In this document: positions 905-61,641 of the stretch, one piece after another
Layout: the number at the start of each line of letters is the position of its first letter
How positions within the stretch are numbered: the stretch's first letter is position 1
From: Odiellus spinosus
Lineage: Eukaryota > Arthropoda > Arachnida > Opiliones > Phalangiidae
NCBI GenBank assembly: GCA_963920705.1
Contig: OY987226.1
Span: 2,916,501-2,980,500, forward strand
Direction: 5' to 3'
Length of the DNA: 64,000 nt
Made by a program: the position numbers and the translations under genes
Notes under the pieces: generated by a model
Database searches by the model: none
Seen by the model: only the letters and a program-made list of their open reading frames with translations
Told to the model about the DNA's origin: nothing

Positions 905-1242
905 CAGAAGCCGATGAAACCCTCCTTTGAAGTCTACTACTCTAATGTTCCATATAGCGCTCCTCTCTGTATGGGTAAAATTCCCAATTTTACGAGTTAG
1001 AAGGGGTCCTACTTCATCCCCCCTTGTCTACGGAAAATTGGAAATTCTCTCTCTCCACAAATGACAACGTTTTTTGGACGAACTCCGAGGCTGCTAGAGA
1101 TATTCGCTCGACGAGCTCCCGCTCCGAAAACATCTACCGTTAGGAGGCGTACGAATCGCGCCTTTTGAGAATAACCCATACAGAGAGGGGTAGACAAGAC
1201 CCGGGAGTAATAGACTTCAAAGGAGGGTTTCATCGGCTTCTG
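905..1242 (+). mobile_element. 7-bp-TSD MITE family A, copy 1
   Basis: This is a complete element of 338 bp with terminal inverted repeats of about 38 bp starting CAGAAGCCGATGAAACCCTC. It is flanked by perfect 7-bp duplications GTAAAAT (898-904 and 1243-1249). A second inner inverted repeat carries CTCTCTGTATGGGT near the left and its complement near the right. There is no transposase. Ten copies lie in this window, seven in this orientation and three reversed. CA...TG ends with NTNNNAN duplications suggest a hAT-like or other cut-and-paste superfamily; I cannot assign it firmly. Confidence 0.93.
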
Positions 1243-1317
1243 GTAAAATGAACAAAATCTTCAAGAGGATAAAAACTATTTATAAAAATATGTAGATATA
1301 TTTTCATTTACAATTAA

Positions 1318-1624
1318 CAGGGTTGCTACGGGTCAGGGAAAGGTCAGGGAATTTGAAATTGAACCAAAAAAATTAGGGGAAAGTCAGGGAATTTAAAGAT
1401 TTTCAAGATGCCAGGAAATTACAATCATTATCTGCGGAAAATATTTGAAATAACCATGTCAGTTGTATATATAGATTAGAACAAAGATACGCGTGCAATA
1501 CGTTTGGCGAACGCAATAGCAAAATTTGTAGCCCTGAAACGGTCAGGGAAGATCGTTGGAAAAGGTCAGGGAAAAACCTGCAAAAGTCAGGGAATTTAAA
1601 TCTGAAAAAACTGTGGCAACCCTG
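1318..1624 (+). mobile_element. Family N element (CAGGGTTGC ends), copy 1
   Basis: The element runs from CAGGGTTGCTACGGGTCAGG to GTGGCAACCCTG, with possible 5-bp duplications ATTAA (1313-1317 and 1625-1629). Repeated GGTCAGGGAAAA-type blocks sit near both ends, and a conserved core includes GTATAGATTAGAAC-like and GCGAACGC sequence. Other copies lie at 30825, 48460 (partial), 48728, 56231 and 60468. Non-autonomous; superfamily not assigned. Confidence 0.8.
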
Positions 1625-1661
1625 ATTAAGTTGAAATTCGCATAACATAAACTGCTAAATT

Positions 1662-1701
1662 GGTCAGGGGGAAAACCTGGAACGTCAGGGGAAACCTGAA
1701 A
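1662..1701 (+). repeat. Family N-like fragment
   Basis: GGTCAGGGGGAAAACCTGG and the following GTCAGGGGAAACCTG repeat the subterminal motif of family N just outside copy 1. It is probably a fragment of another copy. Confidence 0.5.
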
Positions 1702-1719
1702 TGTGTGACTTCCCAAAAA

Positions 1720-1768
1720 CTACTATTATTACTACTATTATTACTACTATTACTACTACCACTACTAC
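1720..1768 (+). repeat. Trinucleotide microsatellite (TAC/TAT)n
   Basis: About sixteen near-perfect ACT/ATT triplets in a row. Translation gives Ser/Asn runs on the minus strand, which is an artefact. Confidence 0.9.
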
Positions 1769-1769
1769 A

Positions 1770-2510
1770 ATAAGATCGTTCTGACGAATCACCCTCTTCA
1801 CTTTTGGGATGAAAAGACATCTATTTTTCTCCCTCTTTCCGTATATTTTCGCTTGGTAGCCAGAGTATAGAATCTTTTTTTTTTTTTTTCACCAACGAAA
1901 GAGTAAAGGGCGTACTTGGTTCTAGTATAAGCGCGTGACACGAACTCTAAACTATACATACTTTACCACCACCGTTCTGACATCGAAAACCTTTACCAAA
2001 GAGTAGGAAGAGCTTAGATTCCTTGCCTCTCATATAGTCTAGAGTAATATTGACTTGTAGTATAGGCAGCGCGATGTCTTAGTCTTATGGTATATAGGAT
2101 GCCACGAAGAATAAAGCTTACTACACCCCCTGCACCGAGCTATGTCTTATAAGAAAGTGATACGTGGTTTGCGCTCGTAATTTTAAACAGGGCTAAAAAA
2201 AAAATTGTCGACTGGAGGCTTCTAGAGTGTGTAACATACCTATAAGTCTGTTTTTTTTTCTTCTATTTTATTTTATAATCAGTCTAAGTTTTATTTTTTG
2301 CAATATTTTTTGGATTAAATTCACGGTTTATTTGCCTTTAAATTTAGAGTTTACTAAGAGCTTTAAATTATACTTCAAATTTAAATTTTGACTTTAAGAA
2401 TTTTCAAAGTTAAAAATTAAGTTTAAAAATAAAGCAATTTTCACTATTTAAAACTGTAATACTTGAAATATTTAATGAGTTACTTAATTAACCGAAAGAG
2501 ACCTTATCAC
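1770..2510. other. No recognised feature
   Basis: Mixed AT-rich sequence with a poly-T run at about 1876-1889. I see no repeat partner in the window and no coding signal. Confidence 0.5.
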
Positions 2511-3374: not shown

Positions 3375-3378
3375 TTAA

Positions 3379-5805: not shown

Positions 5806-6122
5806 CAGAAGCCGATGAAACCCTCCTTAGAAGTCTATTACTCCCGGGTCTTGTCTACCCCTCTCTGTATGGGTTAGTTTCAAAAAGCGCGATTCGTATT
5901 TTTGGAGCAGGCGTTCGTCGAGCGAATATCTCTAGCAGCCTTGGAGTTAGTCAAAAAACGTCGTCGTTTGTGGAGAGAGAGAATTTCCAATTTTCCGTAT
6001 ACAGGGGGTATGAAGTAGGACCCCTTTTATCTCGTAAAATTGAAAATTTTACCCATACAGAGAGGCGCGCTATATGGAACATTAGAGTAGTAGACTTCAA
6101 AGGAGGGTTTCATCGGCTTCTG
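5806..6122 (-). mobile_element. 7-bp-TSD MITE family A, copy 2
   Basis: Reverse-oriented copy with perfect duplications ATTTAAT (5799-5805 and 6123-6129). At 317 bp it is shorter than its relatives because about 22 bp is missing near 5904, the GCCTCCTAACGGTAGAT segment. Confidence 0.93.
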
Positions 6123-8939: not shown

Positions 8940-10158
8940 GAGTTTTTTATTTGAAATTTATACTTTTTCTTTTTTTTCCGATTTTAACCTAAAAAGTTAG
9001 TTACTTCCATCGACAATGTTTTTGATAAACTTCTGGTATAAATGGTCTGTCCTTTTGGCTTCCAGTAAATGGAATTGAGATGTTGAGAATTATCAAGGGA
9101 GTTGCGTTGTTCCTGCGTTTTCGCTTATATGTTATATATACGGTTAAACTAATTAGTAGATGAATATTAGACTCGTATGGTATAATGTACAATGTTTGAT
9201 GGGTTTTAGTTACGGGGCTTATATATTTAATCATATTTGACTGGAATTAATATTAATTAACAACATAAGTACGTCAACTTAATTTAAAGTTAATCAAATT
9301 TGAGAATTACGCGCACCTGTTAAAAATAACTCTGTAAATTATTTTTACCCTATTAATTTTATTTAAAAACTACCTATGAATAAATTAATTTACTTCTGAT
9401 GATATTCAAGCAGCAAATTATTTTAACAATTGTATATTATTCTTTGGTTGTGCAAATAACGTCTACATTTTGCATAAATTAAACTTTGAATTGATACAAA
9501 TAAAATTTAAATAACGATAAAAAAAAGAACACATGTTAAAAAAAAAACCTTACGGTAAAAAGGGACTAAAAAAAACTTTAAATAATATTAAACAACATCT
9601 GTTACACGCGGATAGGTTACCCTTCTGTAAGTTTAGAATTCGTCAAGGTCAGTGATCATTACTCACAAGGTCAATGTAACCCCGGCTTCTTTTGTGAAAA
9701 AAAAAAAGTACCCTTCCAATCCCCACAGTTTTCGATTACGAAATTCCTGGTAGCTTTATCACCCAATCTATTTAATCTCGGGTAGGGAGTAACTTCTATA
9801 GAGTATAATATAGCAAAAGGGTTGCTTTATAGCGTCCTTAATCAAAATCCTGCCTTACAGGGTTCCCCTAAGTTCGCTATAAAGTCCCCTATTGCCCCGC
9901 GCGACGAATAACATTTGTTACTGGTGATACAAAACCCCAACTAACCATTGCAACCCTTCCCTAACGTACACCCCACCCCTCAAGTGTAAATGTCTCTAAA
10001 GTATTCCTTCTTGTATGTCCACATTTTTAAAGGTTTCAGTGCCAAATAGACGTAATTAATTATCCCGAAATTATTTGAAAACAACGTTTGTTCGAGAATA
10101 AGTCTATTTAAAGTTTAATTTTTTGGTATCTGGTGGTTAGACTAATGTTTTAGGGTAC
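8940..10158. other. No recognised feature
   Basis: AT-rich sequence with short A-runs (about 9518-9560, 9699-9708). A 77-codon minus frame near 9001-9234 has no motif. Confidence 0.45.
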
Positions 10159-10840
10159 GTCGACAATTTAAATATTTGACGTCGACAATTTAAATATTTG
10201 ACGTCGAGAATTTAAATATTTGACGTCGAGAATTTAAATATTTGACGTCGAGAATTTAAATATTTGACGTCGAGAATTTAAATATTTGACGTCGAGAATT
10301 TAAATATTTGACGTCGACAATTTAAATATTTGACGTCGACAATTTAAATATTTGACGTCGACAATTTAAATATTTGACGTCGACAATTTAAATATTTGAC
10401 GTCGACAATTTAAATATTTGACGTCGACAATTTAAATATTTGACGTCGACAATTTAAATATTTGACGTCGACAATTTAAATATTTGACGTCGACAATTTA
10501 AATATTTGACGTCGAGAATTTAAATATTTGACGTCGAGAATTTAAATATTTGACGTCGAGAATTTAAATATTTGACGTCGAGAATTTAAAGATTTGACGT
10601 CGAGAATTTAAATATTTGACGTCGAGAATTTAAATATTTGACGTCGAGAATTTAAATATTTGACGTCGAGAATTTAAATATTTGACGTCGAGAATTTAAA
10701 TATTTGACGTCGAGAATTTAAATATTTGACGTCGAGAATTTAAATATTTGACGTCGAGAATTTAAATATTTGACGTCGAGAATTTAAATATTTGACGTCG
10801 AGAATTTAAATATTTGACGTCGAGAATTTAAATATTTGAC
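10159..10840 (+). repeat. 22-bp tandem array, 31 units
   Basis: The unit is GTCGASAATTTAAATATTTG plus AC. All 31 units keep the 22-bp period exactly. Only one site varies systematically, GTCGAC versus GTCGAG, in blocks of 2 C, 5 G, 9 C and 15 G units; one unit near 10590 also has AAAGATTT. Decayed GACGTTGA-like remnants follow to about 10900. Not coding. Confidence 0.97.
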
Positions 10841-12574
10841 GTCGAATATTTTTTGACGTTGATCGACATTACCATTGAATATATTCAACGTCAATTTTCA
10901 ATATCCAACTTTAAAATTCGAATTTTCTACGTTCTAACGTCGTATTTGGAAATTTTTCCGTTTTTCGTGCAGTTACAACATTGTAACTTCAGACTGTTAA
11001 AACAAATCGGTTTGCTTCGTAGTCTTGATATAGGCTGGTGTTATATAAGCGTAGCTGAGGTATAGTTTTAGAGATTCTTTATAAGTTATCTAAACCCCTT
11101 TTTGCTTCCCTTTTTTACGGGCTATTGTTCAGGGTTGGTCCCAAAAGTGGGAGTTTAAGCGAAGTAGAAGAGTGAGAGAGAGAATGATTCAGCCAAGCGT
11201 AACCCTGCAATTTTGCTCTGCCATTTTGTCTGTCTTTTATATTAAAAACTTAACTTCAAAATGGATATTATTATAATTAGTTTTAGTTACAGTTCGGAAT
11301 TGGATAATGAATAAATTCGGATATTTCTAATTTCGGATAAATTGTTAATATAAACAAACGCGTATCAAATGGATACGAATTAAACCCGGAGATAAAATTT
11401 TAAGCTTTATTAATAAACAAATTACGCGTTTATTCAAACGGATAATTAGAAAAAACTAATTATCCGTCGATGATAATTAAAATTATCCAAATAGTGTTTG
11501 AGTATCAAATACCAAAATAGTCTTATCTTTAACTATTAGTATTTTAAGTTTAAAGTTTAAACACTTAATTTAATTCATTAAATATTTCATGTATTTAAAT
11601 TTTCATTAGTGTAAATGTAAATTTTTTTCAAGCTTTAGTTTTTACTGAAAATACATCAGGTTTTCTATATGGTTACCTAAATAGCTACACAGAGTAAATG
11701 CCATAAAAATATTTAAAACATTTTCATGCTTATGAATAAATTATACATTATAACCTTGAACCTTAACCTTTTCCTTAATTATTCAGGCTGTTTTCATCTA
11801 TAAACTTGAATACCTTGTTCCAAATTATTTGAATCAATGTATAGAAAACTATAGATGTATTTTTCTGTATCATGTAGAAAGAGCACTCTAGGAAGGGATG
11901 GCGATATTTCCCCTGTAATCTCAAACTGTTTTTTATCCCAACTCTTTTTCTCTCTCTCTTCCCTCTATTACGAGATCTATGGGGAACAAAAACCCCTGCA
12001 CGAAAAAGGGCTATTCCGAACGAATGACTGTTCTTTTTTTATTTTTAAAAAGTAAAGGGTTAGACGATGTGTTCTCTCCCTTTCCTTTTCTCCATTTTCA
12101 TCCATTTTCATCCCATAGGGAAACTAAAGATCTCCTTTATGTATACCGTGTTGCTTTCGAGTTGATGTTTCGGAACCATTTTTCGGAACCTTTTTTTCTT
12201 TATATATTTTTTTCTCTTGGTTTAAAGGTCGATTTTTATTTTTTTCCGAAGATATATTTCGTATATAAACCCTTTAAAGGGATAATTAAGTGTTAAGGTT
12301 AACCTATTTTTAATTTTCAATAATTTAGCTGACAATTTGGTTTCACAATCATTTTTCAGTATAGTTATGTTTATTTTAATATATAGGCCAATTTTTTGTT
12401 CTGTTCCAAAGATATATATATTAGATTTAAACACTTTAAAGGTATAATTAAGTAATATAAATTAATATTTAAATTTAGATTAATAATATATAAAACAGTA
12501 TGCCTTCACCGTTTAGTTTAGTTTTTTTAAAAAAACGTCAAGTTATCAAACAACAGCGTTTATTATTATTTTAA
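10841..12574. other. Array flank and unassigned AT-rich DNA
   Basis: About 11282-11500 has CGGAATTGGATAATG, CGGATAATTAG and ATTATCC motifs that recall family S but cannot be aligned confidently by eye. The remaining frames (66-105 codons near 11855-12434) are Phe/Lys-rich with no known motif. Confidence 0.4.
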
Positions 12575-12581: not shown

Positions 12582-12923
12582 CAGAAGTCGATGAAATCCT
12601 CCTTTGAAGTCTACTACTCTAATATTCCATGTAGCACGCCTCTCGGTATGGGTAAAATTCCCAATTTTACGAGATCGGAGGGGTCCTACTTCATACCCCC
12701 TGTCTTCGGAAAATTGGAAATTCTCTCTCTCCACAAACGACGACGTTTTTTTTTTTTGACGAACTCCGAGGCTGCTAGAGATATTCGCTCGATGAACTCC
12801 CGCTCCGAAAATATCTACCGTTAGGAGGCGTACGAATCGCGCTTTTTGAAACTAACCCATACAGAGAGGGGTAGACAAGACCCGGGAGTAATAGACTTCA
12901 AAGGAGGGTTTCATCGGCTTCTG
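12582..12923 (+). mobile_element. 7-bp-TSD MITE family A, copy 3
   Basis: Complete, 342 bp, with perfect duplications ATATAAC (12575-12581 and 12924-12930). The left inverted repeat has two substitutions (GAAGTCGATGAAATCC). An expanded T-run lies near 12747-12757. Confidence 0.93.
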
Positions 12924-13557: not shown

Positions 13558-13849
13558 CAAGAAGGATCAGATAAGGAGAGGAAAAGTGGGGCTGCGTTGA
13601 GTTAGAGAGAGAAGAGCCAACCTCCCACTCGGGTGGAAAGGGGGGATAGGAAATTCTCGAGGTAAACTGTTGTCACGTGATCGCTAGCTAGCGCGTCTCA
13701 TAAAGGATTCGTTTTACCCACGTGACAACAATTTACCACGAAGCATCTCTACCCCCGTCTGTCCCCCGTTCTCCCAGAGTGAGAGTTTAGGCCGACGCAG
13801 TAGGAGCCGCGCCGTTCCCACTTTTCCTCTCCTTATCTGATCCTTCTTG
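13558..13849 (+). mobile_element. 7-bp-TSD MITE family B, copy 1
   Basis: 292 bp with inverted ends of about 30 bp starting CAAGAAGGATCAGATAAGGA. Perfect 7-bp duplications ATTTCAG (13551-13557 and 13850-13856). The centre has GTCACGTGATCGCTAGCTAG and GTTTTACCCACGTGACAAC, giving two CACGTG boxes. No transposase. Related copies at 15678 (reverse) and 59294. Confidence 0.95.
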
Positions 13850-14910: not shown

Positions 14911-15225
14911 CAAGAACCCATTCAGGTTCCATAAGAATATGGGAGGGCCGCGATTCAATAACCATCCTCTCAAACTTTGTAGCAAAAGTTCGTCCGCTTC
15001 GAATCGATTTTTCAAGTAAATCACTCCTGACATTATATTATTAACCCGCGCCACTAACGACCTTGACATAATATTTTGGGTAATAAAAATGGAGCCGACC
15101 GAAAAAAGATCTAAGCGTACAAATGTTGCGAAAATTGCGGACGAACTTTTGTTACAAAGTTTGGGAGGATGGTACCAGAGGCTAAAGCTACGCTCCCATA
15201 TTCTTATGGAACCTGAATGGATTTG
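14911..15225 (+). mobile_element. 7-bp-TSD MITE family C, copy 1 (right end eroded)
   Basis: Starts CAAGAACCCATTCAGGTTCC and shares CATAAGAATATGGGAGGGCC, CTTTGTAGCAAAAGTTCGTC and the mirror right arm with copies at 53819 and 61391. The right end reads ATTTG instead of ATTCTTG and no duplication survives. The minus-strand 114-codon frame through it is an artefact. Confidence 0.85.
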
Positions 15226-15677: not shown

Positions 15678-15969
15678 CAAGAAGGATCAGATAAGGAGAG
15701 GAAAAGTGGGAACGGCGCGGCTCCTACTGCGTCGGCCTAAACTCCCACTCTGGGAGAACGGGGGACAGACGGGGGTAGAGATGCTTCGTGGTAAATTGTT
15801 GTCACGTGGGTAAAACGAATCCTTTATGAGACGCGCTAGCTAGCGACCACGTGACAACAGTTTACCTCGAGAATTTCCTATCCACCCTTTCCACCCGAGT
15901 GGGAGGTTGGCTCTTCTCTCTTTAACTCAACGCAGCCCCACATTTCCTCTCCTTATCTGATCCTTCTTG
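15678..15969 (-). mobile_element. 7-bp-TSD MITE family B, copy 2
   Basis: Reverse-oriented and nearly identical to copy 1, 292 bp, with perfect duplications CTTCAAG (15671-15677 and 15970-15976). Confidence 0.95.
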
Positions 15970-16340: not shown

Positions 16341-16735
16341 TAGCTACGATCACACTAGTATTTCTCAATCGATTTGAAACTGTAAAATCAAACCGTTATT
16401 CGAATCGCCAGGAATCGTTTTAAGCGTCATTATCAGGGGCGTCGGAAGTTATTACTAAGTGGGTGGGCTGAACAAGTTGGCTAAGGTCAAATTATATGGG
16501 GCTCAGTTACCCCAGGTCCGACGGTCGAGGGGGCTTGAGCCCACCCTGCCCCCCCCCCCCCCGCTTCCGACGCCCCTGGTCATTATCTTCATAAATCGAT
16601 TTATCGTAGCTTCATCTATCGGTTGTTGAAACCAGCCGAATCGGTATTGAAACTGGTTCCCGAAGCAGTTTCAAAAAATCGAATCAAAACGATTCGAGAA
16701 AAGATGGTTTCGCATCTGAATACACAAAGTTCTTA
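16341..16735 (+). mobile_element. Family R element, split by a hAT-like MITE
   Basis: Begins TAGCTACGATCACACTAG and continues with GGTTGTTGAAACCAGCCG and GAAACTGGTTCCCGAAGCAG as in other R copies. The 145-bp insertion at 16434-16578 splits it. The right end is eroded or replaced by the outer element. Confidence 0.65.
16434..16578. mobile_element. hAT-like MITE with perfect 8-bp duplication
   Basis: Termini CAGGGGCGTCGGAAG and CTTCCGACGCCCCTG are perfect 15-bp inverted repeats. Exact 8-bp duplications GTCATTAT flank it (16426-16433 and 16579-16586). CAGGGG ends plus an 8-bp duplication are typical of hAT. 145 bp, with a C-run near 16548-16562, non-coding. Confidence 0.92.
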
Positions 16736-17738: not shown

Positions 17739-18077
17739 CAGAAGCCGATGAAACCCTCCTTTGAAGTCTACTACTCCAATGTTCCATACAGCGCTCCTCT
17801 CTGTATGGGTAAAATTCCGAATTTTACGAGTTAGAAGGGGTCCTACTTCATCCCCCCTGTCTACGGAAAATTGGAAATTCTCTCTCTCTCCACAAACGAC
17901 GACGTTTTTTGGACGAACTCCGAGGCTGCTCGAGATATTCGCTCGACGAACTCCCGCTCCGAAAATATCTACCGTTAGGAGGCGTACGGATCGCGCCTTT
18001 TGAGAATAACCCATACAGAGAGGGGTAGACAAGACCCGGGAGTAATAGACTTCAAAGGAGGGTTTCATCGGCTTCTG
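17739..18077 (+). mobile_element. 7-bp-TSD MITE family A, copy 4
   Basis: Complete, 339 bp, perfect duplications TTATAAT (17732-17738 and 18078-18084). An open minus-strand frame of 135 codons runs through it, as similar frames do in other copies, because of sequence composition. Confidence 0.95.
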
Positions 18078-25826: not shown

Positions 25827-26164
25827 CAGAAGCCGATGAAACCCTCCTTTGAAGTCTATTACTCCCTGGTCTTGTCTACCCCTCTCTGTATGGGTTAGTT
25901 TCAAAAAGCGCGATTCGTACGCCTCCTAACGGTAAATATTTTCGGAGCGGGAGTTCGTCGAGCGAATATCTCTAGCAGCCTAGGAGTTCGTCAAAAAAAC
26001 GTCGTCGTTTGTAGAGAGAGAGAATTTCCAATTTTCCGTAGACAGGGGGGTATGAAATAGGACCCCTCTGATCTCGTAAAATTGGCAATTTTACCCATAC
26101 AGAGAGGAGCGCTATATCGAACATTAGAGTAGTAGACTTCAAAGGAGGGTTTCATCGGCTTCTG
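25827..26164 (-). mobile_element. 7-bp-TSD MITE family A, copy 5
   Basis: Reverse-oriented, 338 bp, perfect duplications GTTTCAT (25820-25826 and 26165-26171). Confidence 0.95.
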
Positions 26165-27515: not shown

Positions 27516-27853
27516 CAGAAGCCGATGAAACCCTCCTTTGAAGTCTATTACTCCCTGGTCTTGTTTACCCCTCTCTGTATGGGTTATTTTCAATAAGCGC
27601 GATTCGTACGCCTCCTAACGGTAGATATTTTCGGAGCGGGAGTTCGTCGAGCGAATATCTCTAGCAGCCTCGGAGTTCGTCAAAAAAACGTCGTCGTTTG
27701 TGGAGAGAGAGAATTTCCAATTTCCCGTAGACAGGGGGGTATGAAGTAGGACCCCTCCGATCTCGTAAAATTGTGAATTTTACCCATACAGAGAGGAGCG
27801 CTATATGGAACATTGGAGTAGTAGACTTCAAAGGAGGGTTTCATCGGCTTCTG
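27516..27853 (-). mobile_element. 7-bp-TSD MITE family A, copy 6
   Basis: Reverse-oriented complete copy, 338 bp. Flanks ATATTTT and ATTTTAT match only partly, so the duplication is decayed or altered. Confidence 0.9.
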
Positions 27854-28050: not shown

Positions 28051-28387
28051 CAGAAGCCGATGAAACCCTCCTTTGAAGTCTACTACTCTAATGTTCGATA
28101 TAGCGCTCCTCTCTGTATGGGTAAAATTCACGATTTTACGAGATCGGAGGGGTCCTACTTCATCCCCCCTGTCTACGGAAAATTGGAAATTCTCTCTCTC
28201 CACAAACGACGACGTTTTTTTGACGAATTCCGAGGCTGCTAGAGATATTCGCTCGACGAACTCCCGCTCCGAAAATATCTACCGTTAGGAGGCGTACGAA
28301 TCGCGCTTTTTGAAACTAACCCATGCAGAAAGGGGTAGACAAGACCAGGGAGTAATAGACTTCAAAGGAGGGTTTCATCGGCTTCTG
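28051..28387 (+). mobile_element. 7-bp-TSD MITE family A, copy 7
   Basis: Complete, 337 bp. Flanks TTTCTAG (28044-28050) and CTTCTAG (28388-28394) agree at six of seven positions. It lies only about 200 bp from copy 6 in opposite orientation. Confidence 0.93.
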
Positions 28388-29869: not shown

Positions 29870-30214
29870 CAGAAGCCGATAAAACCCTCCTTTTGAAGTC
29901 TACTACTCCAATGTTCCATATAGCGCTCCTCTCTGTATGGGTAAAATTCCCAATTTTACGAGTTAGAAGGGGTCCTACTTCACCCCCCCCCCCCCTGTCT
30001 ACGGAAAATTGGAAATTCTCTCTCTCCACAAACGACGACGTTTTTTTGGACGAACTCCGAGGCTGCTAGAGATATTCGCTCGACGAACTCCCGCTCCGAA
30101 AACATCTACCGTTAGGAGGCGTACGGATCGCGCCTTTTGAGAATAACCCATACAGAGAGGGGTAGACAAGACCCGGGAGTAATGGACTTCAAAGGAGGGT
30201 TTCATAGGCTTCTG
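29870..30214 (+). mobile_element. 7-bp-TSD MITE family A, copy 8
   Basis: Complete, 345 bp, perfect duplications GTAAAAT (29863-29869 and 30215-30221), the same 7-mer as copy 1. A C-run near 29982-29995 adds length. The right repeat has one change (CATAGGCTTCTG). Confidence 0.94.
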
Positions 30215-36167: not shown

Positions 36168-36586
36168 CAGAGGTATATAATAACCCCCTTCGGGGGGAAG
36201 TATGAAAGGTAGGCAAAATCGACGAACAACGAGTGCCCGGCGTAAATCGCGGCGGATCGACACACCGCTTTACTCCCAAAAAAATAGTTACACCATTTTG
36301 AGCCTGACTAAATTTTCCCTACGCGCACTTCCGGAACTCGCGAGCCGAAGTCAACCTTCGACTCCATTTTAACAGACAGCCTGACTCCCGAGACAGGAAG
36401 TTCTAAACACAAATCGAGCCGTCTTGTTTATACAAAGACCATTTACTAGAGTAGCGACATTGAGAAGTCCAGCGCGAGCTAGTGGCCTAGATAGTCAGCA
36501 GCGGGCTCTTGTTGTTCGTGATTTTTAGCATTGGTAGTATAGGGGCTTTCATACTTCCCCCCGAAGGGGGTTATTATATACCTCTG
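36168..36586. mobile_element. 7-bp-TSD element family D
   Basis: About 40-bp perfect inverted ends starting CAGAGGTATATAATAACCCC. Each end itself contains a small hairpin, CCCCCTTCGGGGGG. Perfect 7-bp duplications ATGCTAC (36161-36167 and 36587-36593). 419 bp; the middle is GC-richer (CGCGGCGGATCGACACACC) but has no recognisable gene. Confidence 0.95.
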
Positions 36587-40566: not shown

Positions 40567-40906
40567 CAGAAGCCGATGAAACCCTCCTTTGAAGTCTACT
40601 ACTCTAATGTTCCATATAGCGCTCCTCTCTGTATGGGTAAAATTCCCAATTTTACGAGATCGGAGGGGTCCTACTTCATACCCCCCTGTCTACGGAAAAT
40701 TGGAAATTCTCTCTCTCCACAAACGACGACGTTTTTTTGACGAACTCCGAGGCTGCTAGAGATATTCGCTCGACGAACTCCCGCTCCTAAAATATCTACC
40801 GTAAAAGGAGGCGTACGAATCGCGCTTTTTGAAACTAACCCATACAGAGAGGGGTAGACAAGACCAGGGAGTAATTGACTTCAAAGGAGGGTTTCATCGG
40901 CTTCTG
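40567..40906 (+). mobile_element. 7-bp-TSD MITE family A, copy 9
   Basis: Complete, 340 bp, with a small insertion giving GTAAAAGGAGGCG. Flanks CTGATAG and CTAATAA agree at five of seven positions. Confidence 0.92.
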
Positions 40907-42129: not shown

Positions 42130-42767
42130 GATATCTTTAAATTTATTTCTAGTTAAATATTTGTTTGTAATTCAGGGCTCCCAGACCACCTATAATTACC
42201 TATAATTACCTATAATTCTAAAGTGATCCTATAAAAACCTATAATTTCACTTTTTAACCTATAATACCTATTTTTTGGGTAATTTGTTCAATTTCGGTGA
42301 TAAAATTCGAAAGGAATGAACTATATAACTATAAAAATTATATACTTTTGCTTGAAAAAGTGCAAATGATTGCAAAAAAACCAAGCTGTGGCGGAAAGGT
42401 TTCCTCTCCTAGGTCACTGGTAATTATTACTCTATTTTTTAGAGGTTAGGTAGACTGTCAAGAGGGGGCGTGAGTAGCTAGTAGTGCCAAAGGAAAGGCA
42501 GAGGGACGGGTCTAGAGGCGATAGAACCTATATTGCATTGCGTGTCAGCGAAACCTACCTATAAAACCCCTATTTTTCGAAAGTAAAAAACCTATAAAAA
42601 GTCCTATAAATTGATATTTTTGGACCTATAAATTACCTATATTTTTGGCTTTTAAAACCTATCTGGGCTAGGCGCTGGGAGCCCTGGTAATTTCATTTTA
42701 CTTTTGGATTAGGACTATTTAAAGGATAGAGAATAGATTAAAAATATAGTTAAGGTTCATTCTCCCT
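42130..42767 (+). mobile_element. Family K element half, interrupted by a 6-bp-TSD element
   Basis: CTTTAAATTTATTTCTAGTT and AAATATTTGTTTGTAATT precede the insertion. After it come TTTTGGATTAGGACTATTTA and GGTTCATTCTCCCT before TTAA (42768-42771). The left arm of the usual mirror is absent. Confidence 0.72.
42173..42686 (+). mobile_element. CCTATA-rich element with CAGGGCTCCCAG ends
   Basis: 514 bp with perfect ends CAGGGCTCCCAG and CTGGGAGCCCTG and perfect 6-bp duplications GTAATT (42167-42172 and 42687-42692). Both flanks contain many ACCTATAATTACC- or CCTATAAA-type repeats, recalling the elements at 34223 and 62488 though the interior differs. CAGGG ends with a 6-bp duplication may be a hAT subgroup; not assigned. 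Confidence 0.92.
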
Positions 42768-43497: not shown

Positions 43498-43504
43498 AGT
43501 TGAC

Positions 43505-48559: not shown

Positions 48560-49046
48560 TTTTCTTTCCTTAAAATACCGAAATTTAAAGCAAATATTAA
48601 ATTAAGCAAATTTGGGGTCTTTTTTAAATATACCCCGAAATTGAAATCATCATTAGATTTAAGCGCGTTTAAATATTAAAATTTGAAAATTCATTTTACT
48701 AAAAAATTATAATAATTTTAATTTAAACAGGGTTGCCACAGGTCCTGGGAAAAGTCAGGGAATTTGAAAATTAACCAAAAAAGTCAGGGAATTTTAAGAT
48801 CTTTCAAGAAGCCAGGAAATTACAATCATTATCCGCGGAAAAGATTCTCAGCTGACCGTGTCAGTTGTATAGATTAGAACAAAGATACGCCTGCAACAAA
48901 GTTTGGCGAACGCGATTATTTAAAAAAATAAAAGGTTAAAAATTGGATAGTATTAAGCTGAAACGATCAGGGAAATCGTTGGAAAATGTCAGGGGAAATC
49001 CTGGAAAAGTCAGGGAATTTGAATCTGAAAAACTGTGGCAACTCTG
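48560..49046 (+). repeat. Duplicated segment, partner at 60302-60789
   Basis: Starting at TTTCCTTAAAATACC and running through AAATTTGGGGTCTTTTTTAA, TTTAAGCGCGTTTAAATATT and a complete N element, the two segments are similar over about 485 bp. The shared flank shows the duplication happened after the N insertion, or N is part of a larger repeat. Confidence 0.85.
48728..49046 (+). mobile_element. Family N element, copy 4
   Basis: CAGGGTTGCCACAGGTCC to GTGGCAACTCTG, 319 bp. It contains one GTCAGGGGAAATCCTGG and one GATCAGGGAAATCGTTGG block, the latter the single-copy equivalent of the 23-bp unit expanded at 56491. Confidence 0.87.
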
Positions 49047-49723
49047 ATTTTGGTTACTTGTTTGGTTTCCATTTGGTTACTCGTTTGGTTATTAATTTGG
49101 ATACGTGTTGTTACCATTTGGCTAGTTTGCAGGTTAAATTTGGCTACTTTATCGTTTGATTTTGATATCATTTGGTCAAACTTACTGATTAAAAAGATTA
49201 ACCATGTTAAAGCTTCTATATTTAAAATTAGAAGAGTTTTATCATTAGTTGAGCATATTTCGAGTGACCCTGTCATTGTATTAAAAGCTACCCTTTCCTG
49301 ACACAAAGGGTTAACTTCGGTTAAGACGATACGCGTATATTTTCGGCAGCATGCACCCCTAAAATCAATAATGTCGTGGAGAGAAACACGTTTGCTTTAT
49401 CGAATTCAGACTCTTCTCAACCTTGTTTTCCCACCAAATTTACGGTTGGCCATGCACCACGCGGTCGAATGTATTTCTCCCTTCGCTATAACCTAACCCT
49501 TTTCTCGATTTACTTAATGGAAAAGCTGACAGTCAACATACTCAAGACTGTATAAGAATTTCCTACGTTGAATTGTGGTCTGATTTAACTCTTATATACG
49601 ATATTACATTGTGTATCAATCCGCCTCAGCGTAACTAAGTTTGCAAACTGATATAGAATCAAAAGGATGCATTGTGTACAACACGTGCTACTCTCAAACG
49701 TTTAAAGGCCGGGTGAAAATTAA
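49047..49723. other. No recognised element
   Basis: A TTTGGTTACTCGTTTGGTTA-like run at 49040-49130 looks like a short decayed tandem repeat. The rest is unassigned. Confidence 0.4.
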
Positions 49724-49728
49724 AAATT

Positions 49729-50740
49729 ACCTGACATACTTCTAATAGAATGAAAAATCTGGCATACTTCTAATATAATGAAAAATCTGGCGTACTTCTG
49801 ATAGAATGAAAAATCTGGCGTACTTCTGATAGAATGAAAAATTTTGCATACTTCTGATATAGTGAAAAATTTGACATACTTCTAATATAGTGAAAAATTT
49901 GACATACTTCTAATATAGTGAAAAATTTGACATACTTCTAATATAGAGAAAAATTTGACATACTTCTAATATAGAGAAAAATCTGGCGTACTTCTGATAG
50001 AATGAAAAATCTGGCATACTTCTGATAGAATGAAAAATTTGGCATACTTCTGATATAGTGAAAAATTTGACATACTTCTAATATAGTGAAAAATTTGACA
50101 TACTTCTAATATAGTGAAAAATTTGACATACTTCTGATATAGTGAAAAATTTGGCATACTTCTAATATAGTGAAAAATTTGACATACTTCTAATATAGTG
50201 AAAAATTTTACATACTTCTAATATAGTGAAAAATCTGACATACTTCTAATTGTGTGAAAAATCTGACATACTTCTAATAGCGTGAAAAATCTGACATACT
50301 TCTAATTGAGTGAAAAATCTGACATACTTCTAATAGAATGAAAAATTTGACATACTTCTGATATAGTGAAAAATTTGACATACTTCTGATATAGTGAAAA
50401 ATTTGACATACTTCTGATAGAATGAAAAATTTGACATACTTCTGATAGAATGAAAAATTTGACATACTTCTGATAGAATGAAAAATTTGACATACTTCTA
50501 ATAGCGTGAAAAATTTGACATACTTCTAATAGCGTGAAAAATTTGACATACTTCTAATAGCGTGAAAAATTTGACATACTTCTAATAGCGTGAAAAATTT
50601 GACATACTTCTAATAGCGTGAAAAATTTGACATACTTCTAATAGCGTGAAAAATTTGACATACTTCTAATAGCGTGAAAAATTTGACATACTTCTAATAG
50701 CGTGAAAAATCTGACATACTTCTAACAGAGTGAAAAATAG
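49729..50740 (+). repeat. 28-bp tandem array, about 36 units
   Basis: Unit GACATACTTCTAATATAGTG plus AAAAATTT. Variants occur in blocks: GATAGAATG units at the left and middle, ATATAGTG units, and a run of ATAGCGTG units at about 50500-50700. The right edge passes into S-element sequence. Minus-strand frames encoding YQKYVKF-like repeats are products of the period, not genes. Confidence 0.96.
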
Positions 50741-50818
50741 TCTATTTTTTAATGAAACAGAAAATATACATCAGTAGATTTTATCCAATTAATAAAAATT
50801 CTACGAATTCCGAGCTCT
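50741..50818 (+). mobile_element. Family S fragment (right end only)
   Basis: AAAATAGTCTATTTTTTAATG, TTTTATCCAATTAATAAAAA and TTCTACGAATTCCGAGCTC match the right end of S copies at 23025 and 52367. The left part is replaced by the 28-bp array. Confidence 0.82.
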
Positions 50819-51389
50819 AATATTGATTCTTCTTCTATAGTGGATAAACTTTAGATTTGAACGATATATAAATAAGCTATGGAAAATCAGTTGTCGGGGC
50901 TGCAATCTCCATTTTAAAGTGGAAATAATATAAATATTCCCTTTTGAAAATGTCAAGAACACGTGTCTAAAATAGTCTACAAATTAATTCAGTTTTCATT
51001 TATCAAAATATGTTTCCAAAACTAAACTATATTAGAATATATAATTTATAAAATTGACATAATTTAATTAAGGTATTATAATATACATGGTTATTTGTAT
51101 ATATAGATATTTAAAATATTTATTCACTCCAATCGTAATTAAGAGTCGGGTAGTTAAATTAAAAATAATATCAAAATAAAGTTCGAGTTCGTAATAATAA
51201 AATAATAATGTCCGAACTTATTGCTAATGAACAAAAGCTCCGTGTATAAAGTTTGTAAACATAAATTAAGTTAAGTTTAGTCCATTTCATTTTAAATATT
51301 CACTGACAATGTTGGAAATTCGCTAAGGTTCGAAAGGTTATGAATTTAATATATTTTCAATCAATTTCTATAGTTTTGCATACGCGAAT
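50819..51389. other. No recognised feature
   Basis: AT-rich unassigned spacer. Confidence 0.4.
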
Positions 51390-51933
51390 TTAAAGCCGTG
51401 TTCACGCGAGAGACTTTGTAAAATATTTAAAAATAGTTTCAAAGGTCAAATTATAATATTTTCAGGTCAACTGTAAAATATTATTTAAAGGGAGAATGCA
51501 ACAAGTGTTTTGTTTATCTATTCCTTATCGTTTAAATAGGCCTAGTCCAACAATGAAAAGTTTACAAAATAAATATTAAATTAGAAATAAATTTAAAACT
51601 TACCCTGAAAATAGGCTTAGCGGGATTCATGGAGATCTTTAATTGCCTCCGTGTAAGATCTATGAGCAAAGGCCGTCGTTCACGAATGGAAATAAGCTGA
51701 TCTCCATGAATCCCGCTAAGCCTATTTTCTGGGTAAGTTTTAAATTTATTTCTTGTTTAATATTTGTTTGTTAATTTTTTCGCTAGTGGATTAGGCCTAT
51801 TTAAACGATAAGGAATCACTTGTTGTTAGGTTGCATTCTCCCTTTAACAAAATATATAATTATCACCTTAAAAAGTTGATTTGGAGATTCAAAATAATTT
51901 GTTTTAAAAAGTCTCTAGTGTGAACGTAACTAA
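51390..51933 (+). mobile_element. MITE family T, copy 7, split by a family K element
   Basis: TAAAGCCGTGTTCACGCGAG on the left and GTCTCTAGTGTGAACGTAAC on the right are the T ends. The K element at 51489-51843 sits between them at a TTAA. Confidence 0.75.
51489..51843. mobile_element. TTAA-type MITE family K, most complete copy
   Basis: 355 bp between TTAA at 51485-51488 and 51844-51847. Ends AGGGAGAATGCAAC and GTTGCATTCTCCCT are perfect complements. Long arms mirror each other through TTAAATAGGCCTAGTCC and GGCTTAGCGGGATTCATGG into a short core. No coding sequence. This copy defines the family used for the other K entries. Confidence 0.93.
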
Positions 51934-52299
51934 AAGGTCAAATTAAACCAGATAATATTTTTACTTTAATACCAAGCTCTATTAAAAATTAGCAGTGAAA
52001 TAAAGTGAAATTAAAGATCAAAGACGGCCTATAACTTATTTATTCGTCCTGTATCAAAAGAGAAAGAGAATAAGGTTTTGTCTAATTAGGGCCTGCGTGT
52101 GCTTGTCAAGTTCAAACGATTTTAGATTGAAATTTTTAATAAATTAACAATTAATAACTTAACATTAATAAATTATATTTCTGAGAATAATATTCTTTAA
52201 AGAAGACAAGCAACCGGACTCGATTGAGGCTGCTTACCAAATTAATCTCGCCTCAAACTCGCCAATTTAATCGCAGGAAATTGAAAAGAGTATCCAGAG
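51934..52299. other. No recognised feature
   Basis: Unassigned spacer. Confidence 0.4.
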
Positions 52300-52366
52300 G
52301 TTGTTTTTACATACGCGTGACGTCAGTTTTACTTTTCATTTCAATCTGCTCCCATAGAATAACGAT
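52300..52366 (-). repeat. Family W fragment
   Basis: TTTTTACATACGCGTGACGTC, AGTTTTACTTTTCATTTC and GCTCCCATAGAATA match the complement of 17555-17617. It ends exactly where S copy 2 starts, so S may have inserted into it. Confidence 0.6.
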
Positions 52367-52906
52367 AGAGCTCGGAATAGGATCGATCCATTATCTTCCG
52401 TTATTCGTATATTTTATTTTCGGATAAAATTGTTTAACTAAAAAATTAAATTAGTATATTCGTATAATTGTTAAACGTATAAGGTTTACCCGAAGATAAG
52501 CCTTCGCCGCTTTATCTATCTACAAATTACTCGTATTCGAACGTATAACGATGGATAAGAAACATTCGCGTTTCCAGAATTAGTCTAAAATATAAGAAAA
52601 ATATTTCAAATTGACTTTTAATTCGAAGAATAGAAATAAAACGATAAGATTTTAAATCATCTTTTTATTCGTTATTTTTCAGGAAAATAAATTTTGAATT
52701 AAATTTTTATCCGAACGTATAACGCGGATAATATTCAAAGATAAGTTGCCATTTTTGGATAAAAACGGATATGGATTATGTTTTTTTACTTTATCTTTGA
52801 ATAAGTTAACTCGAATGAAAATTAGTCTAATTTTAATCAAACGGATAATATACAACAGAATTAAGATTTTATCCAATTAATAAAAATTATACGAATTCAG
52901 AGCTCT
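52367..52906 (+). mobile_element. Inverted-repeat element family S, copy 2
   Basis: AGAGCTCGGAATAGGATCG to ACGAATTCAGAGCTCT. Similar to 23025-23545 along its length, with extra bases near 52413 and 52775. Left border TA. Confidence 0.82.
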
Positions 52907-53530
52907 TTATTTTGAAGTCTGTTAAACGAAAAGCTTGATTAAGGCTTCAATTTGTTTCGACGCTTAAGCTTGCTAAACAAATGTTAATTAAAAACGCGCC
53001 TTTAGACCTTTGAGGAAAGGTGAGAGCTTCACTTTAAGCTTTTGGAAAACCCTTTAAGCATTTAGTTTTCATCTCGTTGAATTTTTAAATTGACACGACT
53101 CCTTAAGCGAAAGAGAAAATATACGGGGAATGTTTTAAAAATTTTAATTTTAAATTTATTCCTTTGTCTTTCGTTTTCTCGTTCGTTCTCCATCCTTTTA
53201 ATGTTAATTTAATATAAATTATTAAAGACCTAATCGAAGAAGGCAAATTAACAGAAGCGCGTGCCTAGTTTAAATTTCCTCCTTTTAGAATTTCAGGGTT
53301 TGGGTTAAAGGTCATGTGAAAGAATAATAATGTAGATTCTCTTTTCTGTAATAAATTAAAATAAATTCCTTGTTCACCTTTTTATCCTGAATTGACAAAT
53401 GAGACCCGTGTCACTCGCAACTATTGGTAAACAAGTTTGTCAATAAACTCCACAGGGAAGCCACACCTCCATAGCCCTTTGTTATTTGATAAAAGTTCGC
53501 TAAGCCTAATTTTTTAAATAAATTCCTTGC
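52907..53530. other. No recognised feature
   Basis: Unassigned AT-rich sequence. Confidence 0.4.
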
Positions 53531-53600: not shown

Positions 53601-53818
53601 TTAAATTGACAATGCTAAGTCACCGGGAAAACATGGATAATAAATTATCAAATGAATAATTATTATATTTGCGAATTAAAAATTGGTGAATAGGTTATTA
53701 ATTAAAGAGGATGAATTTAGATGAAGAAATAGGAATGACTATAATAGGGCGGTTTTAGATAACTAGCGTTAATATGTGATATAACCCCACTATTTGAATC
53801 ACTTTAAGCAAGAATTCA

Positions 53819-54126
53819 TTCAGGTTCCATAAGAATATGGGAGGGCCGCGATTCAATAACCATCCTCCCAAACTTTGTAGCAAAAGTTCGTCCGCTTCGA
53901 ATCTATTTTTCAAGTAAAAATCGCTCCTGACATCTATTATTAACCCGCGCCACTAACGACCTTGACATAATATTTTGGGTAATAAAAATGGAGCCGACCG
54001 AAAAAAGATCTAAGCGTACAAATGATGCGAAAATTGCGGACGAACTTTTGTTACAAAGTTTGGGAGGATGGTACCAGAGGCTAAAGCTACGCTCCCATAT
54101 TCTTATGGAACCTGAATGGATTCTTG
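53819..54126 (+). mobile_element. 7-bp-TSD MITE family C, copy 2
   Basis: Complete, 308 bp, ends CAAGAATTCATTCAGGTTCC and GGAACCTGAATGGATTCTTG, perfect 7-bp duplications CTTTAAG (53812-53818 and 54127-54133). The left and right arms pair over most of their length through the CTTTGTAGCAAAAGTTCGTC segment. Confidence 0.95.
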
Positions 54127-56230: not shown

Positions 56231-56965
56231 CAGGGTTGCCACAGGTCAGGGAAAACTGGGAAAAGCCAGGGAATTTGAAAATGAACCAAAAACGTCGGGG
56301 GATTTTAAGATATTTTAAAAAGTCAGGGAATTTAAAGTAGCCACGAAATTACAATCATTATCTGCGGAAAAGATTCTCAGCTGACCGTGTCAGTTGTATA
56401 GATTAGAACAAAGATACGCCTGCAAAAAGTTTAACGAACGCGATTATGTAAAAAATAAAAGGTTAAATATTGGGTAGTATTAGCCGAAAAGGTCAGGGAA
56501 AATCGTTGGAAAAGGTTAGGGAAAATCGTTGGAAAAGGTTAGGGAAAATCGTTGGAAAAGGTTAGGGAAAATCGTTGGAAAAGGTTAGGGAAAATCGTTG
56601 GAAAAGGTTAGGGAAAATCGTTGGAAAAGGTTAGGGAAAATCGTTGGAAAAGGTTAGGGAAAATCGTTGGAAAAGGTTAGGGAAAATCGTTGGAAAAGGT
56701 TAGGGAAAATCGTTGGAAAAGGTTAGGGAAAATCGTTGGAAAAGGTCAGGGAAAATCGTTGGAAAAGGTCAGGGAAAATCGTTGGAAAAGGTCAGGGAAA
56801 ATCGTTGGAAAAGGTCAGGGAAAATCGTTGGAAAAGGTCAGGGAAAATCGTTGGAAAAGGTCAGGGAAAATCGTTGGAAAAGGTCAGGGAAAATCGTTGG
56901 AAAAGGTCAGGGAAAAACCTGGAAAAGTCAGGGAATTTGAATCTGAAAAAACTTTGGCAACCCTG
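56231..56965 (+). mobile_element. Family N element, copy 5, enlarged by an internal array
   Basis: CAGGGTTGCCACAGGTCAGG to TTGGCAACCCTG. The usual 300-320 bp element is here 735 bp because one internal 23-bp block is present 18 times (56491-56904). Ends and conserved core are otherwise normal. No target duplication seen (CACCCA versus TTTTAT). Confidence 0.9.
56491..56904 (+). repeat. 23-bp tandem array, 18 units, inside family N copy 5
   Basis: Unit GGTYAGGGAAAATCGTTGG plus AAAA, exact period throughout. Unit 1 has GGTCAGGG, units 2-11 GGTTAGGG, units 12-18 GGTCAGGG. The frames through it (131, 75 and 81 codons, EKVRENRWKR-like) are the three readings of the same unit and not genes. Confidence 0.97.
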
Positions 56966-57928: not shown

Positions 57929-58266
57929 CAGAAGCCGATGAAACCCTCCTTTGAAGTCTACTACTCTAATGATCCATATAGCGCTCCTCTCTGTATGGGT
58001 AAAATTCACAATTTTCCGAGATCGGAGGGGTCCTACTTCATACCCCCCTGTCTACGCAAAATTGGAAATTCTCTCTCTCCACAAACGACGACGTTTTTTT
58101 GACGAACTCCGAGGCTGCTAGAGATATTCGCTCGACGAACTCCCGCTTCGAAAATATCTACCGTTAGGAGGCGTACGAATCGCGCTTTTTGAAACTAACC
58201 CATACAGAGAGGGGTAGACAAGACCAGGGAGTAATAAACTTCAAAGGAGGGTTTCATTTACTTCTG
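57929..58266 (+). mobile_element. 7-bp-TSD MITE family A, copy 10
   Basis: Complete, 338 bp, right inverted repeat partly decayed (CATTTACTTCTG). Flanks ATTTCAC (57922-57928) and ATTTCTC (58267-58273) agree at six of seven. A 147-codon plus frame (57659-58102) merges unique sequence with the MITE and is not a gene. Confidence 0.92.
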
Positions 58267-58273
58267 ATTTCTC

Positions 58274-58977: not shown

Positions 58978-59286
58978 GGACGTTATAAGCGCTGCTGATT
59001 GCTGAAATAATATGATTGGTCCGATTTTTATTTACTATTTTTCAAATTTTACTTTCGCTATTCAATGGGAACGCATTTGAAATTAAATTTAAAACTGACG
59101 TCACAGGATTGAACCTTTTTTAAAAATAAACTAGGTTCTAAAGTTTGGTTAATATTGAATATAAATTAAGTTTAAAATTAAACCAATCAGATTAATCCAA
59201 CGTCTCCCACCTTCAACACTACATATTTCCCATTATGGTGTCGCCATCTGGCGACATTTTTAAAGAAACTCAATAGTGATATCTCT
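58978..59286. other. Decayed repeats
   Basis: AAGCGCTGCTGATTG with AATAATATGATTGG resembles 28785-28820. TCAATGGGAACGCATTTGAA with AAACTGACGTCACAGG resembles the right end of W. Confidence 0.45.
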
Positions 59287-59293
59287 GTTGAAC

Positions 59294-59574
59294 CAAGGAG
59301 GATTAGACAAGGAGAGGAAATGTGGGGCTGCGTTGAGTTAGAGAGAGAAGAGCCAACCTCCCACTCGGGTGGAAAGGGGGGATAGGAAATTCTCGAGGTA
59401 AACTGTTGTCACGTGGTCGCTAGCTAGCGCGTCTCATAAAGGATTCGTTTTACCCACGCGACAACATTTTACCACGAAACGTCTCTACCCCCGTCCTCCC
59501 AGAGTGGGAGTTTAGGCCGACGCAGTAGGAACCGCGCCGTCCCCACATTTCTTCTCCTTGTCTAATCCTCCTTG
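59294..59574 (+). mobile_element. 7-bp-TSD MITE family B, copy 3
   Basis: 281 bp with ends CAAGGAGGATTAGACAAGGA and the complement TCTAATCCTCCTTG; both ends carry matching substitutions relative to copies 1 and 2. Perfect duplications GTTGAAC (59287-59293 and 59575-59581). Confidence 0.95.
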
Positions 59575-59581
59575 GTTGAAC

Positions 59582-60301
59582 GAATGAAATAATATTCTTT
59601 GGGAGAATTTACCCACATATACGCTGAAATTCAAACCTAACTTCAAAGTTTAAATTAAATTTAAATCTATTTCTTTTGTATTTCTTAGTTCTCTTTAATG
59701 AATATATATTTGAATTGCAAGAAAATTAGTATATTTTAATTTAAATCCGAGGGTATTCTTTTGAAGCAAATACATTTTAAAGGTAATGAATTTTTTTACC
59801 ACTCCTCGCTGTTCAAAGATTTGAAAAACTCGGGTTTTTTTTTTTTCGTGACTCTTGATAAATAACATAGGTACTGAATTTCATCGTATATATTAAAAAA
59901 AAAAAAGTTAAAGTACCCTTTAGAAATTAATTTAAAAGCGATTTAAAATGAAAAGAAGTCTTTCTTCTAGAGCATATTCTATTATATTTGCATATTATCC
60001 TACCTTTCTTTCTAGAAAAAGACTTAAATAGAAATCTTAAGGAATTAATTGAAATACGAATCTCTTTTCTAAATCCCTGGTTCCCCAAAATCAGAGCGAA
60101 TAAAAAAAAAGATTAAAAAAAAAAAAAAAAAAAACAAAGCTTGAATATCTTCCATTTTATTTCTGATGGAAGTCTTTTAATTAAAAATTCCAAGAACCTT
60201 AGTATATATAAATATATATTATCCAAATTACTTAAATTTAAAAAGACAGTATAGCAAATATTTGATCTTAAATCAAAGGTATAGTAGAAATAAATAAAGT
60301 A
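59582..60301. other. No recognised feature; homopolymers
   Basis: T-run near 59837-59847 and A-run near 60115-60134. Very AT-rich, no gene. Confidence 0.45.
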
Positions 60302-60789
60302 ATTTTCCTTCCTTAAAATACCAAAATTCAAAGCAAATATTAAATTATGCAAATTTGGGGTCTTTTTTAAATATACTCCAAAATTGAAATCATCATTAGA
60401 TTTAAGCGCGTTTAAATATTAAAATTTGAAAATTCATTTTACTAAAAAATAATAATTTAAATTTAAACAGGGTTACCACAGGTCCTGGGAAAAGTCAGGG
60501 AATTTGAAAATTAACCAAAAAAGTCGGGGAATTTTAATATCTTTCAAGAAGCCAGGAAATTTCAATCATTATCCGCGGAAAAGATTCTCAGCTGACGGCG
60601 TGTCAGTTGTATAGATTAGAACAAAGATACGCCTGCAACAAAGTTTGGCGAACGCGATTATATAAAAAAAATAAAAGATTAAAAATTGGGTAGTATTAGC
60701 TGAAACGGTCTGGGAAAATCGTTGGAAAAGGTCAGGGAAAACCTGGAAAAGTCATGGAATTTGAATCTGAAAAAACTATGGCAACCCTG
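60302..60789 (+). repeat. Duplicated segment, partner at 48560-49046
   Basis: Carries the same flank (CCTTAAAATACC, TTTGGGGTCTTTTTTAAATA, TTTAAGCGCGTTTAAATATT) and the N element that follows. Confidence 0.85.
60468..60789 (+). mobile_element. Family N element, copy 6
   Basis: CAGGGTTACCACAGGTCC to TATGGCAACCCTG, 322 bp, with one AAAATCGTTGG block (no expansion). Core GCTGACGGCGTGTCAGTTG has a 3-bp insertion. Confidence 0.86.
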
Positions 60790-61383
60790 AAATAATATTT
60801 TTAATAATAATTTTACATTTCACCTTCCCTTTGAAATAAATGACGTGGATTTCCTTCTTAAACTCGACCACCATGCAGTACCGGCTAATATCACTTTCTA
60901 CACTACACTATATAATATATCAAACCCCAAAAAGCTTTTTGAATAAGTATATTTTTTTATACACAAGGTTATGTAGGATTAAGCCTAGCCAATATCCCTT
61001 AGGGGCCTATTGGCACCGCCGTTATATTGCTTTTTGGCAACTAGTCGCGTGCGCCCGTTATTATCTAAATCCTCCTTTAGGCCGCAACAGAGACTCGGCC
61101 TTAAGCCTTGGCTTTTTTTTTTTTTTTTTTTTTCACGCCTATATGCCTACATTTGCGTCGTCTACACCTCCTTACTCATCTACTTTTCGCCTAGGTATTT
61201 GCCAAAAGCGTGGGGCTTAAAATGGAGACGCAAAGTTGAGCAAACAAGAGCTATAGTGGCGGCTTAAAAATCGGTGGGATCCTTTGGGCCGTTTAGTGTT
61301 AAGTTCCGTTTTCATGGAGATTGGGAATGTTACGTTTTGAGGTGTTTTAAACCCCGTCAGAATAATTTCATTATAATTAATGA
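60790..61383. other. Unassigned sequence with a 126-codon open frame
   Basis: A plus-strand frame 60840-61220 crosses a T-run at about 61112-61132 that would encode seven Phe. The downstream part is moderately GC-rich. No motif; low-confidence non-gene. Confidence 0.35.
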
Positions 61384-61390
61384 CTCTTCG

Positions 61391-61641
61391 CAATAATCCA
61401 TTCAGGTTCCATAAGAATATGGTAGCATAGCTTTAGCCTCTGGTACCATCCTCCCAAACTTTGTAACAAAAGTTCGTCCGCAATTTTCGCGACATTTGTA
61501 CGCTTAGATCTTTTTTCGGTCGGCTCCATTTTTATTACCCCAAATCGATTCGAAGCGGACGAACTTTTGCTACAAAGTTTGGGAGGATGGTTATTGAATC
61601 GCGGCCCTCCCATATTCTTATGGAACCTGAATGAATTCTTG
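61391..61641 (-). mobile_element. 7-bp-TSD MITE family C, copy 3
   Basis: Reverse-oriented and shorter (251 bp); the spacer between the two arms is reduced, leaving an almost continuous hairpin. Ends CAATAATCCATTCAGG and CCTGAATGAATTCTTG, perfect duplications CTCTTCG (61384-61390 and 61642-61648). Confidence 0.94.

Follow-up and report, generated by a model that had tools for sequence, protein, structure and literature searches.

Four MITE families with 7-bp target duplications

The DNA analysed here is a 64,000-nucleotide stretch of the Odiellus spinosus genome (assembly GCA_963920705.1, contig OY987226.1, positions 2,916,501 to 2,980,500), referred to below as the window and numbered from its first letter. 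By BLAST and inspection, we identified in it 16 full copies of miniature inverted-repeat transposable elements (MITEs) that fall into four families, A (10 copies), B (3), C (2) and D (1), span 250-420 bp and have CA...TG termini in common. The evidence set out below makes it likely that these families are non-autonomous members of the P-element superfamily. Family A elements measure 317-345 bp across the ten copies and have the termini CAGAAG...CTTCTG, with an inverted repeat of 72 columns at 81% identity in the one copy measured. The three family B copies end in CAAGAAGG or CAAGGAGG, and the copy measured (13558..13849) carries a perfect 33-bp terminal inverted repeat. Both full copies of family C are diverged palindromes, and the single family D element, 419 bp long, has a perfect 41-bp terminal inverted repeat. 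A further C copy (14911-15223) was excluded from the 16 because its right end is lost.

Comparison of the flanks of the 16 copies at lengths from 4 to 10 bp singled out 7 bp as the length of the target duplication. The 7-bp flanks match perfectly in 12 copies, the remaining four, all of family A, matching at 5/7, 6/7, 5/7 and 6/7; at 4, 6, 8, 9 or 10 bp no copy in the window has perfect flanks, and at 5 bp one does (the A copy at 27516-27853, with 7-bp flanks that agree at 5/7). In the left-hand duplication copies, position 2 is T in 16/16 and position 6 is A in 14/16. Among the 12 perfect duplications, T2 is found in all and A6 in 11, with binomial tails of 2.5e-6 and 2.6e-5, respectively, given the base composition of the window and with insertions treated as independent. 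The sole A6 exception in this set is CTCTTCG, in family C. These counts bear out the initial annotation, which had described CA...TG ends, a 7-bp duplication and an NTNNNAN rule in almost every duplication of the four families, and whose quoted duplication words were all located in the window.

We also scanned the window for inverted ends (termini matching at 13/16 or better) between perfect flanking repeats. At 7 bp this returned 10 matches, where a crude 0.28^k estimate predicts 0.4; nine correspond to elements of the initial annotation, and the tenth (48675-53148) is AT-rich and looks like chance. The scan is not a clean control, since matches also exceeded the crude estimate at 4, 6 and 8 bp (94, 25 and 5, respectively), many of the printed 6- and 8-bp matches being palindromic words within inverted repeat pairs.

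Family A across the genome

In the genome of the window (443 Mb), exact matches to the first 21 bases of family A number 18,782, of which one strand has 9,358 and the other 9,424, and the reversed-sequence control gave 0 and 0 matches; if ends pair up, family A has about 9,400 copies. From elsewhere in the genome we fetched 39 further A copies and used 38, L018 being excluded because its right end lacks CTTCTG. A perfect 7-bp duplication flanks 33 of the 38, and the other five match at 6/7; perfect flanks were seen once at 4 bp and never at 5, 6, 8, 9 or 10 bp. The initial annotation had named genome-wide 8-bp duplications among the observations that would speak against its reading, and for family A, as far as length is concerned, none appeared. 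The genome-wide check covers family A only, and counts for B, C and D are those of the window; two copies met outside it, L081 (D, partial) and L138 (B, half), had no readable duplications.

The query used to fetch A copies included 13 bases of right flank and preferentially retrieves copies in which GTA adjoins the right end, so that base preference is biased in this sample while duplication length is unaffected. On the far side, which is least affected, A6 is present in 29/38. Target words differ between copies, both in the window and among those fetched. One A copy is nested in an older A fragment at GTAAAAT, and its flanks, joined with one copy of the 7-bp duplication, align to A 1-83; since just six A bases lie beyond the duplication (5/6 match), the support for this empty site comes mainly from one of its sides. 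Searches of viral contigs with exact A, B and D ends gave 0 matches each. On the minus strand of L081, near 2110, a sequence shares its first 16 letters with family A and then diverges (CAGAAGCCGATGAAACAGTCC), and could represent a related element.

P elements of the same genome

In this genome, PF21788, the GTP-binding domain found in P transposases, was matched at least 144 times, with 150 of 164 candidates scored. PF21787 and PF21788 were both present in all five open reading frames (ORFs) scanned, and one ORF compared with solved structures matched the P transposase 6p5a (E 7e-19). Among the matches listed, none lies inside the window, and A-D, at 250-420 bp, are without a detected P transposase; this is expected of MITEs, which need not encode one. 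By eye, many of the P-transposase matches fall on small contigs (such as C45, C118, C169 and C275), in the 3-9 Mb region of C1 and around 29-32 Mb on C2.

We sought both ends of the element at 16 P loci and could read nine distinct insertions, some of them (including the C17, C45 and C9 elements) by eye from printed flanks; L063 and L072 were counted once because the region is duplicated and the two have one shared duplication. Eight of the nine have a 7-bp duplication, with T2 in 7/8, A6 in 5/8 and both in 4/8, and the ninth, a divergent element, has 8 bp. Five of the seven families with 7-bp duplications start with CA. One P element is present both on C17 (L080+L068+L081, C17:8096789-8105130) and on C2 (L078+L066+L079), and the two copies show no difference across 5,404 bp, a sign of very recent movement or copying.

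Table 1. MITE copies and minisatellite arrays of the window, and P elements read at both ends elsewhere in the genome. TSD, target site duplication.
Feature	Position	Strand	Termini	TSD or flanks	Remarks
Family A MITE	905..1242	+		GTAAAAT	TSD at 898-904 and 1243-1249
Family A MITE	5806..6122	-		ATTTAAT	
Family A MITE	12582..12923	+		ATATAAC	
Family A MITE	17739..18077	+		TTATAAT	
Family A MITE	25827..26164	-		GTTTCAT	
Family A MITE	27516..27853	-		ATATTTT/ATTTTAT	5/7; without clear TSD
Family A MITE	28051..28387	+		TTTCTAG/CTTCTAG	6/7
Family A MITE	29870..30214	+		GTAAAAT	
Family A MITE	40567..40906	+		CTGATAG/CTAATAA	5/7
Family A MITE	57929..58266	+		ATTTCAC/ATTTCTC	6/7
Family B MITE	13558..13849	+		ATTTCAG	perfect 33-bp terminal inverted repeat
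Family B MITE	15678..15969	-		CTTCAAG	
Family B MITE	59294..59574	+		GTTGAAC	
Family C MITE	53809..54126	-		CTTTAAG	diverged palindrome over whole element
Family C MITE	61391..61641	+		CTCTTCG	diverged palindrome
Family C copy	14911..15223	-			degraded right end; no TSD counted
Family D MITE	36168..36586	+		ATGCTAC	perfect 41-bp terminal inverted repeat
P element	C17		CATGGACTC	ACTACAC	5.7 kb; splits an A MITE, A sequence on both sides
P element	C33		CATAGACAAT	ATAAAGG	
P element	C1		CATAGACAAT	ATAGAGC	same family as the C33 copy
P element	C45		CAAGAAAATA / CAGAGAAAAT	CTCCAAT	duplicate on C1
P element	C2		CATGGACGC	CTAGACC	
P element	C1		CATAGACTAA	ATATTAT	
P element	C8		CTTGGAGG	GTAGAAT	
P element	C1		CGGTGCC	CTTCAAA	
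P-like element	L130/L108, C9:1779000-1786263		TAGAGTATC	GTCCCAAT	8-bp TSD
Minisatellite array	10157-10845				22-bp unit
Minisatellite array	43504-45916				23-bp unit
Minisatellite array	49732-50738				28-bp unit
Minisatellite array	56486-56935				23-bp unit

Probable assignment to the P superfamily

Our assignment compares the duplication length, target rule and CA...TG ends of A-D with those of the genome's own P elements, and A-D are likely P-element MITEs because their 7-bp duplications are as made by the P elements of the same genome. We propose that P-type transposases of this genome, which have an RNase-H fold with an inserted GTP-binding domain, would recognise elements by their CA...TG ends, excise them and integrate them with a stagger of 7 bp at NTNNNAN targets, which are roughly palindromic, and that repair of the joined site would leave the 7-bp duplication.

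Published systems provide close parallels. The Drosophila P-superfamily element 1360 has a 7-bp duplication at 274/279 sites, with the motif GTTNAAC (earlier KTNBWAB), and thus resembles A-D in length and in T2/A6, whereas the P element has 8 bp and the motif GTCCGGAC (PMC3276498). Galileo, also of the P superfamily in Drosophila, makes duplications of 7 bp, rarely 8, with the palindromic consensus GTATTAC/GTANTAC (PMC4168063), and again matches A-D in length and T2/A6; its terminal inverted repeats are unusually long (PMC3688188), in contrast to the 250-420 bp MITEs described here. The fetched A copies often show GTAAT.. or GTAAA.., reminiscent of Galileo, in what is a biased sample. Both duplication lengths were therefore already known within the P superfamily, and the T2/A6 preference of A-D fits its published 7-bp motifs. 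In Anopheles gambiae, P-derived MITEs are thought to have been moved by P elements, as we propose for A-D, but they have 8-bp duplications and ends that match named P elements, a match not obtained for A-D (PMC1562414). Zebrafish Pdre2 encodes a P-type transposase and has the ends CATACC...GGTATG, and differs in its 8-bp duplication. The Drosophila P element, which starts CATG, likewise has a P-type transposase and differs from A-D in duplicating 8 bp. A-D are, on this assignment, new members of an already known kind, P-superfamily MITEs; in the literature searched, as far as its accessible parts go and with Repbase entries outside the search, we noticed no report of 7-bp P MITEs beyond Drosophila.

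The initial annotation had instead framed A-D as the products of a hAT-like enzyme with a stagger one base shorter than the usual 8 bp, an explanation that we regard as improbable on evidence that covers the P elements of the genome and, for hAT-like elements, those of the window. In its favour is hobo, a hAT element that resembles A-D in its target rule, NTNNNNAN, and differs in its 8-bp duplication, found in 1,196/1,198 insertions (PMC3276498). The ends of A and D are also of the CAG type, and the A end is slightly closer to two CAGGG ends (8/22) than to any P end (7 or fewer). The start of family D, CAGAGG, presumably resembles hAT ends such as that of Tol2. Furthermore, the Repbase paper gives hAT families with a '7-bp TSD' as an example query, implying that such duplications are on record for some of these families. 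Against these points stand the 7-bp duplications of eight of the nine P insertions readable in the same genome, together with those of 1360 and Galileo, and the CAAGAA ends of B and C, which are unlike what we take to be the CAGNG-type hAT end. Perfect 8-bp duplications of the hAT type were absent from the 16 window copies and the 38 further A copies. The window itself contains four CAGGG-ended elements, which we take to be hAT-like from their end motifs, and their flanking repeats are of 5, 6, 6 and 8 bp, none of 7. Three of these (1318-1624, 42173-42686 and 62488-62945) have a 5-bp (ATTAA) or 6-bp repeat (GTAATT, CTATAG); the fourth, a 145-bp CAGGGGCGTCGG-ended MITE at 16434-16578, has a perfect 8-bp duplication, GTCATTAT, which is the usual hAT pattern and contrasts with the 7-bp families.

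Mobilisation by a Dada-like or other superfamily with duplications of 6-7 bp is most improbable. Dada elements do make duplications of that length, but they target U6, U1 and tRNA genes, in contrast to the varying target words of A-D, and their U6 and U1 families have no terminal inverted repeats, whereas those of B and D are perfect over 33 and 41 bp.

Several other observations weigh against assignment to the P superfamily, besides the CAGGG similarity of the A end and the 7-bp hAT annotations. Comparison of A-D ends with the P ends read gave similarity no better than that of shuffled letters, and of the seven P families with 7-bp duplications two have CT or CG as their first letters. The ATATTAT insertion also allows a 9-bp reading, with ATAGAC as its ends, and in the CTCCAAT element, read by eye, the left and right ends are one base apart in register. 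The C9 P-like element has TAGAG ends as well as its 8-bp duplication; it is 3.85 kb long with long inverted repeats, and is distant from the other P elements, being 23-26% identical to three of the four query proteins and unmatched by the fourth. Both ends were unreadable at five P loci (L062, L074, C1:15733330, C2:22248587 and C17:13608301), and at one more, the C2 copy of the element on C17, the right end could not be read. A THAP domain was found in one of the five ORFs scanned, below the Pfam cut-off, some of the ORFs being cut at the start. Finally, the stretches scanned yielded no convincing P element carrying the ends of A, B, C or D.

Search for autonomous partners and number of enzymes

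These scans for A-D ends, which cover part of the at least 144 P-transposase matches, took in 30 P loci of about 3.3 kb (L048-L077, partly overlapping), 40 upstream flanks (L090-L129) and other P stretches fetched (L048 to L139). The 30 loci gave one weak C match (L064) and the 40 flanks three matches at 14/18 or better; weaker partial matches occur in L065, L074, L091, L098, L117, L132, L134, L136, L137 and L139. Three candidates were rejected. An A-like word in L118 lies inside a transposase ORF and is therefore attributed to chance. A B-like end in L108 (CAAGAAGGATCAGACAGG, 14 identical letters, left flank CTTTATG) is not an end of the neighbouring P-like element, which has its own ends, TAGAGTATC, and the L108 stretch as read has no B-type right end. 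In L138, half a B element, followed by CTTTAAA, lies downstream of a P domain at a distance of 2.5 kb; it was read as a cut B MITE, and neither a B-type left end nor CTTTAAA before CA was seen upstream of it. As to the autonomous element with A-D termini that the initial annotation called for, P genes are present in the genome, and no partner with matching ends was found in the stretches scanned.

The initial annotation had further inferred that one type of transposase mobilised all four families. A single type with a 7-bp stagger and a T2/A6 preference does fit all of them, and P-like enzymes were among its candidates; that one transposase served all four is unproven, with A-D ends matching P ends at shuffle level and no partner found. 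Within the P superfamily, we consider a single mobilising transposase unlikely. The duplication length and target rule common to A-D, and CAAGAA, recognisable by eye in both B and C, would favour it, but past the first letters the ends of A-D differ by eye, besides resembling P ends no better than shuffles do. Moreover, P families with the ends CATGGAC, CATAGAC, CAAGAAAA, CTTGGAGG and CGGTGCC all make 7-bp duplications, so that a shared rule needs no single enzyme. We favour P transposases as the enzymes that moved A-D, probably those of several separate families whose ends differ from one family to the next.

In a broader reading, to which we give about an even chance, several P families (ends CATGGAC, CAAGAAAA, CTTGGAGG and CGGTGCC) share the 7-bp stagger together with a target like NTNNNAN and cause MITE bursts of very large size, such as that behind the 18,782 exact 21-bp ends of family A, and the 7-bp P lineage, known from Drosophila, is both the main P lineage of this genome and a leading source of its small interspersed repeats. 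P elements are indicated as what drives a family whose intact ends amount to about 9,400 copies. Our analysis suggests that orphan MITEs can be placed by duplication length and target rule, with the host's own P elements as a yardstick, and cautions against taking CAG-ended MITEs for hAT elements by default. The presence, within a single genome, of P families that duplicate 7 bp alongside a relative that duplicates 8 bp also offers a natural comparison for what sets the stagger of a P transposase.

Other repeats in the window

The window also holds the long minisatellite arrays listed in Table 1. The CAGGGTTGC element at 1318 contains GGTCAGGGAAAA-like units, and the GAAAAGGTCAGGGAAAATCGTTG unit of the array at 56486 resembles sequence inside this element, as if the array had grown from one.

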